From Oxalobacteraceae bacterium OTU3CINTB1 (lineage in GTDB: Bacteria > Pseudomonadota > Gammaproteobacteria > Burkholderiales > Burkholderiaceae_D), in the NCBI GenBank assembly GCA_024123955.1, contig CP099652.1:4464001-4528000 (forward strand): a DNA stretch of 64,000 bases. Direction: 5' to 3'. The position numbers and the translations under genes were made by a program. This document shows positions 8,984-10,569 of the stretch, piece after piece. The notes beneath the pieces were generated by a model. It made no database searches and had not been told where the DNA came from. It saw only the letters and a list, made by a program, of their open reading frames with translations. Within the stretch, counting starts at the first letter, position 1. Every line of letters starts with the position of its first letter.

Positions 8984-9256
8984 TCAGTGCAGGAATTTGA
9001 ACAGCACAGCGGTGACGCCAGTTTGTACAATGAGGATGGTGAACATCCATTGTATTAACTCTGACTTGAGCTGGGCGAGCTCGGCGCGAAATTCGGCGCG
9101 GAGCTCGGTGAGCCTCATGTCCAGATAACTCTTAGTAACGAGATGACTGTCTATTAGCTGAAACATCGCCGATGCCAGCGCCTTCGCTTGCTTGTCGGGG
9201 AAGCCGCCCTCAATTAACGTGTCCATAAACTCAACCGAATCGAAGTTGTTCGCCAT
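8984..9256 (-). CDS. Small CCDC90/DUF1640-like coiled-coil membrane protein
   Basis: 90 residues. The first half reads FDSVEFMDTLIEGGFPDKQAKALASA, typical of the CCDC90/DUF1640 family. A short charged coiled coil (LRAEFRAELAQLKSEL) and a C-terminal membrane helix (IQWMFTILIVQTGVTAVLF) follow. Function in bacteria is unknown. A related repeat-expanded protein is at 41938-42447. A strong ribosome-binding site (AAAAAGGGGAAGAGC) precedes the start. Confidence 0.8.
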   Translation of the reverse strand: MANNFDSVEFMDTLIEGGFPDKQAKALASAMFQLIDSHLVTKSYLDMRLTELRAEFRAELAQLKSELIQWMFTILIVQTGVTAVLFKFLH

Positions 9257-9313
9257 GCTCTTCCCCTTTTTAGCTTAGACCAGCCCCGCTGCTGTTTGGT
9301 TCCCGGCCGGACC

Positions 9314-9342
9314 TTGACAGACCGCCGCCGAACTGCAACCAT
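9314..9342 (+). promoter_or_regulatory. Putative sigma-70 promoter of the trpS leader
   Basis: A perfect -35 box TTGACA (9314-9319), a 17-base spacer and a weak -10 AACCAT (9337-9342). The expected transcription start falls at about 9349, exactly the A of a short leader ORF. Confidence 0.5.
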
Positions 9343-9348
9343 ACGCGC

Positions 9349-9399
9349 ATGATTTTTTCCACCACACCACACGCCCGCCTGACTTGGCGCCGCTCCTAG
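9349..9399 (+). CDS. Putative Trp leader peptide (leaderless)
   Basis: A 16-codon ORF, MIFSTTPHARLTWRRS, ending TAG. It has one Trp codon four codons before the stop, much like classical TrpL peptides that end WWRTS or similar. There is no ribosome-binding site, and the predicted transcription start is its own ATG, so it would be leaderless; leaderless trpL ORFs are known in Sinorhizobium. The Trp-Arg-Arg codons overlap segment 1 (GCCGC, 9389-9393) of a possible attenuator. Too short to be certain from sequence alone. Confidence 0.5.
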   Translation: MIFSTTPHARLTWRRS

Positions 9400-9441
9400 C
9401 GCGCGGCCACTGTCTACCCATAGTGATGTGATATTTTTATC

Positions 9442-9470
9442 AACGCCGCCCTCTTCTGGTGGCGTTTTTT
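9442..9470 (+). terminator. Intrinsic terminator in the trpS leader (attenuator)
   Basis: Nine-pair stem AACGCCGCC / GGTGGCGTT with a seven-base loop, followed directly by a T run and located 40 bases before trpS. No plus-strand gene lies upstream, so the terminator can only act on the trpS leader itself. The GCCGC in its left arm could alternatively pair with GCGGC at 9403-9407, which could also pair with GCCGC at 9389-9393: the arrangement of a ribosome-controlled attenuator. Confidence 0.75.
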
Positions 9471-9510
9471 ATTCGTCGCGCCGGAGGGGGCAACGTAAAG
9501 GAACCCTCTG

Positions 9511-10569
9511 ATGAGTCTGCCTGACCAGTCCCAAGTTATCGCCTCGGCGCCAGCCGCCACCGCCGCCAAGGGTCCCACCGTGATCCTGACCGGCGACCGC
9601 CCGACCGGCCCCCTGCACCTGGGCCACTTCGTCGGCAGCCTGCGCAACCGCGTCGCCTACCAGCACGACTACAAGCAGTTCATCATGCTGGCCGACGCCC
9701 AGGCGCTGACCGACAACATGGACGACACCAACAAGGTGCACCGCAACGTGGTGGAAGTGGCGCTGGACTACCTGGCGGTCGGCATCGACCCAACCAAATC
9801 GACGATCCTGATCCAGTCGCAGATCCCGGAACTGGCCGAACTGACCTTCTACTACCTGAACATGGTCACCGTGGCGCGCCTCGAGCGCAACCCGACCGTC
9901 AAGACCGAAATCGCTCTGCGCGGCTTCGAGCGCGACATCCCGGCCGGCTTCCTGACCTACCCGGCCTCGCAGGCGGCCGACATCTCGGCGTTCAAGGCCT
10001 CCATCGTGCCGGTCGGCGAAGACCAGATCCCGATGATCGAACAGACCAACGAAATCGTGCGCCGCTTTAACCGCATCGCCAACAAGGACATCCTGGTCGA
10101 GTGCAAGGCCCTGGTGCCGGAGATCGGCCGCCTGCCGGGCACCGACGGCAAGGCGAAGATGAGCAAATCGCTCGGCAACACGATCAACCTGGGCGCCACC
10201 GCCGCCGAGATCACCGCCGCCGTCAAAAAGGTATATACCGATCCGCTGCACCTGCGGGTCGAAGATCCGGGCCACCTGGAGGGCAACGTCGCCTTCATCT
10301 ACCTGGACGCCTTCGATCCCGAAAAGGACAAGCTCGAGGAAATGAAAGCCCACTATGTGCGTGGCGGCCTGGGTGACTCGATCGTCAAGAAGCGCCTGGA
10401 AGTGGTGCTGCAGGAGATGCTGGCGCCGATCCGCGCGCGCCGCGAGGAACTGGCCAAGGACCACGGCTACATCATGCAGATGCTGAAGGAAGGCACGATG
10501 CGCGCGCGCGAAGTGGCCGCGCAGACCGCCGATGAAGTCAAGGCCGCCCTCGGCCTGCGCTACTTCTGA
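9511..10569 (+). CDS. trpS: Tryptophan--tRNA ligase
   Basis: 352 residues, usual length for bacterial TrpRS. Class I synthetase signatures are both present: the HIGH-type motif HLGH (residues 36-39, within [12 protein letters not shown]) and KMSKS (about 216-220). It charges tRNA-Trp with tryptophan in the cytoplasm. The ATG at 9511 follows an AAGGAA ribosome-binding site. Upstream is a probable Trp-codon leader with terminator, suggesting that the enzyme is induced when charged tRNA-Trp is scarce. DUF1294 and DMT transporter genes follow closely on the same strand. Confidence 0.97.

Follow-up and report, generated by a model that had tools for sequence, protein, structure and literature searches.

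Here we describe a leader element upstream of a tryptophanyl-tRNA synthetase gene in Oxalobacteraceae bacterium OTU3CINTB1, located in a 64,000-nt stretch of its genome (contig CP099652.1; hereafter, the window, with positions counted from its first base). The element spans 9314-9470 and is very probably a ribosome-mediated attenuator that makes transcription of the TrpRS-II-type trpS behind it depend on how much charged Trp-tRNA is available. Sequence and folding together give a short ORF with a Trp codon, an intrinsic terminator, an antiterminator exclusive with that terminator, and a protector helix. The first-pass annotation had proposed this type of control for trpS, and comparison with relatives supports it: the alternate pairing is conserved, and so is the Trp codon together with its reading frame.

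All parts of the element lie on the forward strand. A -35 hexamer, TTGACA (9314-9319), which is identical in all 72 leaders from the genus, is followed at a distance of 17 nt by a weak extended -10, TGC AACCAT (9334-9342; TGn at 9334-9336, hexamer at 9337-9342). Six nucleotides past the -10 is the AUG of a 16-codon ORF (9349-9399), which begins at ATG 9349, encodes MIFSTTPHARLTWRRS, and ends with a stop codon at 9397-9399. Based on the sequence and its conservation in the genus, this leader ORF is probably leaderless. Its single Trp codon, UGG (9385-9387), is codon 13 and the proposed stall site. The segments GCCGC (9389-9393), GCGGC (9403-9407), and GCCGC (9445-9449) supply the alternative helices. 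In the minimum free energy (MFE) fold of the full leader, the Trp/Arg codon segment pairs with the GCGGCC segment as a protector helix (9385-9409), and an intrinsic terminator occupies 9442-9470, with its stem at 9442-9466 and a U-run at 9465-9470. In the MFE fold of the stalled-ribosome prefix, an antiterminator three-way junction spans 9403-9449. The two optimal folds are mutually exclusive. The promoter, the ORF with Trp near its end, and the three GC-rich segments are thus all present as originally annotated. The strong terminator, placed by that annotation 40 bases ahead of trpS, was also recovered by a terminator scan, 44 nt ahead of the trpS ATG at 9511.

A sigma-70 scan of 9000-9700 listed no promoter, and the -10 here is weak. 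Scanning the whole window against Rfam gave no family at threshold in the leader region, and a relaxed threshold gave only weak matches there, far under the cut-off; the leader is therefore an annotation gap, below the threshold of every Rfam family. One of the weak matches, ncS54 (Burkholderia sRNA 54) at 9410-9473, was considered as the same element and dropped because Rfam, Trp_leader included, produced nothing at threshold in nine named relatives, of which four are Burkholderia. Elsewhere in the window, 39665-39956 matches Rfam 5_ureB_sRNA (RF02514) with 140.6 bits.

From this anatomy we infer the transcription start, the translation of the leader, the stalling, and the response to tryptophan. 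Transcription would start at, or very close to, the A of the AUG at 9349, and no Shine-Dalgarno site would be used in translating the leader peptide. With ample Trp-tRNA, the ribosome would clear the Trp codon, reach the stop codon, and cover or have passed 9403-9407; the terminator at 9442-9470 would then form and trpS would stay untranscribed. When Trp-tRNA is short, the ribosome would stall on the UGG at 9385-9387 and mask the protector segment, leaving 9403-9407 to pair with 9445-9449. The resulting three-way junction would take up the 5' arm of the terminator, and RNA polymerase would continue into trpS.

Folding of the leader RNA had been suggested as a check, and RNA 9349-9475 (-36.8 kcal/mol, z -3.6) proved more stable than all 200 of its dinucleotide shuffles. 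The stalled prefix was modeled as the transcript from the downstream edge of the ribosome, with the Trp codon in the A site and the edge assumed to lie 13 nt past the first base of the UGG. In its MFE fold (-15.9 kcal/mol), the 9403-9407/9445-9449 helix encloses hairpins at 9408-9425 and 9429-9442. The first-pass annotation had been cautious about an antiterminator of only five bases; that count is right for the core, but the 5-bp helix encloses two further hairpins and so forms a three-way junction. When the RNA was grown from 9398 in 3-nt steps, the complete antiterminator core appeared at 9450 and was replaced by the terminator at 9465, so any advantage of the antiterminator would have to be kinetic.

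Within the genus, a search for the window-type trpS protein succeeded in all but one of 74 genomes (73), the single miss being a genome that is 60% complete. A comparison of the trpS upstream regions of relatives had been named as a possible refutation of attenuation; we read all 73 regions, and the leader element precedes trpS in 72. The remaining locus, L048, appears as a natural deletion, in which the promoter is kept, the -10 runs directly into a terminator remnant, and the leader ORF and antiterminator are lost. It was left out of the alignment and folds (n = 72). Between the -10 and the AUG lie 6 nt in 68 leaders and 7 nt in four. Leader ORFs range from 14 to 30 codons and encode 60 distinct peptides among the 72, yet Trp is present in every one (doubled in 36), and Arg occupies the next two positions in 67 and 70 of the 72, respectively. 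In all 72 leaders, each UGG among the first 90 nt shares the reading frame of the AUG; the first UGG lies 30, 36, 39, 45, or 48 nt from the AUG, five distances that are all multiples of three. Mean ungapped pairwise identity rises from 31% in the 50 nt upstream of TTGACA to 77% in the 35 nt that begin with it, and is 38% in the 25 nt past the terminator. A non-coding segment around 9423-9432 (AGTGATGTGA), which also lies within the antiterminator junction, is strongly conserved, and a GATGTGA motif is conserved. A covariance model built for the genus matches in 73 of 245 family genomes, in 72 of them just upstream of the window-type trpS; the remaining match (G114) is weak. The window's own genome has one match, the trpS element.

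The alternate folds are also retained across the genus. We found the 5-bp antiterminator core in the stalled-prefix MFE of 71 of the 72 leaders (the exception is L044) and the terminator hairpin in the full-leader MFE of 71 (the exception is L046). The protector, formed by GCGGCC and the Trp-codon segment, is in the free-leader MFE of 66 and absent in six, and a proper U-run is absent from L030 and L046. Spacing is similarly constrained, with the last Trp codon 18-20 nt 5' of GCGGC in 71 of 72. In 58 leaders, the stop codon comes first and GCGGC begins 6-9 nt past its first base; in the other 14 the stop lies beyond GCGGC. With the ribosome at the stop codon and its edge set at stop+12, GCGGC is wholly covered in 48 of 72 leaders and falls short by one base in the other 24.

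RNAalifold on the 72-sequence alignment predicted the terminator and a few protector pairs, and none of the 13 predicted pairs was changed on both sides. The antiterminator core is nearly invariant within the genus, and formal covariation is nil; since the core bases serve three helices, they would be held fixed. By eye, the first inner hairpin shows a compensating change in L041, which has GCUA/UAGC where many leaders have CACU/AGUG. In a shuffle test of 121 distinct leaders, at least five antiterminator pairs formed in 120 versus 77 expected, a modest excess that makes the pair count a weak test. The named loci in the set had been picked by a pattern containing the core, and the automatic choice of terminator was sometimes wrong (for example, L082). 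By energy, 64 of the same 121 leaders are at or below the 5% tail.

The window-type trpS is present in 143 of 245 family genomes (E 1e-100). From these 143 we chose 49 loci to cover other genera and left out L090, which is cut by a contig edge. Of the 48 loci read, 24 have a Trp leader 6-7 nt past a -10 and 24 have none. Five of the six leaders read in one genus, g6, have no T-tailed terminator, and the sixth has a different hairpin. At L081 and L085-L088 of this genus, a Trp-Trp leader and hairpin are kept with the T-tail absent, and these loci may terminate transcription inefficiently or in a different way. Loci L130-L139 (genera g33 and g42) carry the same trpS type, and several have a TTGACA promoter with GGCATCAT-like or terminator remnants and no Trp ORF; here, the leader appears to have been lost or replaced.

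In the order, the window-type trpS was found in 42 of 300 genomes (E 1e-90). Thirty-four genomes outside the family have the gene, and 21 loci were read at one copy per genome, after removal of L194 (motif not found) from 22 and with the second copy in G331 left out. A Trp-Trp or Trp-Trp-Trp leader precedes the window-type trpS in 17 of the 21, seven of these 17 without a standard -10 at leaderless distance. Antiterminator segments differ by group and still pair (GCGGC/GCCGC; GGCGGC/GCCGCC; GGTAGC..CCGG/CCGG..GCTGCC), with modest shuffle support. A pattern scan of named genomes gave at least 119 stretches. Among the 119 listed, a window-type trpS (at least 50% identical) lies downstream in 93; five of these rest on a short or partial match, four of them because the locus ends. 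Two further stretches, both actinobacterial, have a distant trpS, and 24 have none, three of which (L205, L282, and L294) are at a locus end. Among the first 80 stretches listed, the corresponding numbers are 61, two, and 17. The genera among the 93 include Burkholderia, Paraburkholderia, Cupriavidus, Pandoraea, Trinickia, Massilia, Telluria, Oxalicibacterium, Herbaspirillum, Duganella, Pseudoduganella, and Rugamonas. In Actinobacteria, L228 (a Micromonosporaceae MAG) and L245 (Pimelobacter simplex) have TGGTGG leader-like ends before distant trpS genes. Burkholderia sp. BCC0506 carries a second Trp-Trp leader (L265) on the same contig as L209; behind it, trpS similarity extends over 99 residues from residue 254, and the gene looks partial or diverged. 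In a sample of the class, only two of 274 genomes have the window-type trpS (E 1e-90), the window's own included, and the sole other one (L322) had no such leader on inspection.

The gene behind the leader, trpS (9511-10569), encodes a TrpRS-II-like tryptophan--tRNA ligase of 352 aa that scores above the TIGR00233 cut-off. Its best PDB matches are 1yi8 (E 3e-117) and 2a4m (E 1e-115), the latter named Tryptophanyl-tRNA synthetase II; we take both to be the Deinococcus radiodurans enzyme. The genome also has a second, canonical trpS (NF008922; L316, 755-1957), with 79 of 180 residues identical in the N-terminal half. In this genome and five others read, the ATG of the canonical trpS is only a few bases past the end of the upstream reading frame, which we read as an M50-type peptidase, and this leaves no room for a leader. 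A trpS search of the genus gave three matches in 65 of 73 genomes, read as the window type plus the second trpS matched in two pieces, and the window type alone in eight. All eight genomes with the window type as the sole TrpRS found keep the Trp leader. We also considered a nitrating TrpRS II partnered with NO synthase. The sequence similarity agrees with such an enzyme, but NO synthase (PF02898) has no match in the window's genome, while two of 14 control genomes match, and the partnership is therefore not supported.

Could the leader act by other means? One alternative is a leader whose main action is in trans, through the terminated RNA, the peptide, or both, like Sinorhizobium rnTrpL/peTrpL; attenuation would then be what generates the RNA. 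The leader RNA would start at the AUG and end at the terminator, as described for S. meliloti rnTrpL in the available text of PMC7298713, and the segment around 9423-9432 is strongly conserved where no coding is needed. That segment, however, also belongs to the antiterminator junction, the peptides vary widely save for the Trp-Arg end, and the element sits directly upstream of trpS at 72 of 73 model matches, making a mainly trans role improbable. It is less probable still that the leader senses a signal other than Trp-tRNA, such as a protein or ligand binding the GATGTGA part, in which case RNA structure alone would explain why the ORF and Trp codon are kept. GATGTGA is conserved, and because the UGG of the window's leader is paired in its protector helix, it could be kept for that pairing. 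This reading would have to account for AUG-UGG spacing that shifts only in multiples of three and for Trp-Trp or Trp-Trp-Trp kept in other families despite differing pairing segments; further, no Rfam family matches at threshold.

Small ORFs and hairpins are common, and the absence of a promoter here from the sigma-70 scan might suggest that a small ORF without function merely happens to lie next to a terminator unrelated to it. Given conservation in 72 of 73 genomes with the frame kept, we regard the chance of such a coincidence as negligible.

That only one of the two different TrpRS genes in this genus has a Trp-tRNA-sensing leader offers a concrete regulatory reason for carrying both. A further reading, which we consider rather unlikely, is that the TrpRS-II-type copy is a reserve synthetase across Burkholderiales. 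Shortage of Trp-tRNA would release it, also where the shortage results from inhibition of the housekeeping TrpRS (compare indolmycin and Streptomyces TrpRS1), and the leaderless, terminated leader would in addition work in trans, as RNA or as peptide. The leader is short and probably leaderless, and its many natural variants, which carry one to three Trp codons, stop early or late, and include one deletion, would allow leaderless initiation and attenuation to be studied together.

Among known systems, trpL-trpE of E. coli and S. meliloti resembles the window element in having a Trp leader ORF and alternating hairpins. According to PMC7298713, the S. meliloti trpL transcript begins with its ATG and has a role in trans, and this leaderless AUG resembles the start inferred for the window element. 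Unlike the window element, which precedes a synthetase gene and has no Rfam match at threshold, trpL-trpE controls a biosynthetic operon. The window's genome appears to have a classical trpL of its own: upstream of trpE (L314, reverse complement, from position 1243) is an ORF, MSSIKKHNVNQTGSIEAWLWRRWQSWQN, with four Trp codons, a hairpin, and a T-run, so Trp attenuation probably acts there too. The pheST genes, whose leader carries Phe codons, are, like the window's trpS, synthetase genes under attenuation, though other ones. Their classical attenuation in gamma-proteobacteria is named in PMC1262725. Rfam Phe_leader scores 19.7 bits on the window leader versus a gathering score of 55. In B. 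cenocepacia, attenuated short 5' UTRs are described in the consulted sections of PMC5688073, two of them at the tRNA-synthetase genes BCAL3373 and BCAL3436. TrpRS II is portrayed in an excerpt of PMC9437257 as a second copy that is induced by radiation damage and works with NO synthase. This Deinococcus-type enzyme provides the nearest structures to the window's trpS, although the window's genome has no NO synthase match.

Among the matches listed in the open-access literature, we recognized no report of a trpS leader in Burkholderia, beta-proteobacteria, or Burkholderiales. Term look-ups in the main texts of transcription start site studies of B. cenocepacia and C. metallidurans (PMC4603805, PMC7563307) and of an attenuator survey (PMC2965389) likewise gave no trpS leader. 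The first-pass annotation did not regard trpS attenuation as standard, which is only partly right, as a Trp attenuator before trpS is known in Streptomyces.

There, Vecchione and Sello reportedly described ribosome-mediated attenuation of an auxiliary, antibiotic-resistant trpS in 2010. The source cited here as PMC1262725 is presumably Seliverstov et al. 2005. It predicts attenuators before trpS in Streptomyces, and RNA-seq of S. lividans (PMC8079986) gives a leaderless one-Trp leader, MMTRTCTQLWRAA (trpL2), before trpS. Streptomyces and S. lividans trpL2-trpS share with the window element a short Trp leader peptide before trpS and two hairpins, and the attenuated Streptomyces gene is reportedly an auxiliary TrpRS gene. 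They differ in that trpL2 is said in PMC8079986 to be without a U-rich sequence, whereas the terminator of the window element ends in a U-run and its antiterminator is a three-way junction. Furthermore, the synthetase of the window is TrpRS-II-like, and the phylum is a different one. The attenuated-trpS logic of Streptomyces would extend to a second phylum, and the Burkholderiales element adds to a kind of trpS control already known from Streptomyces.
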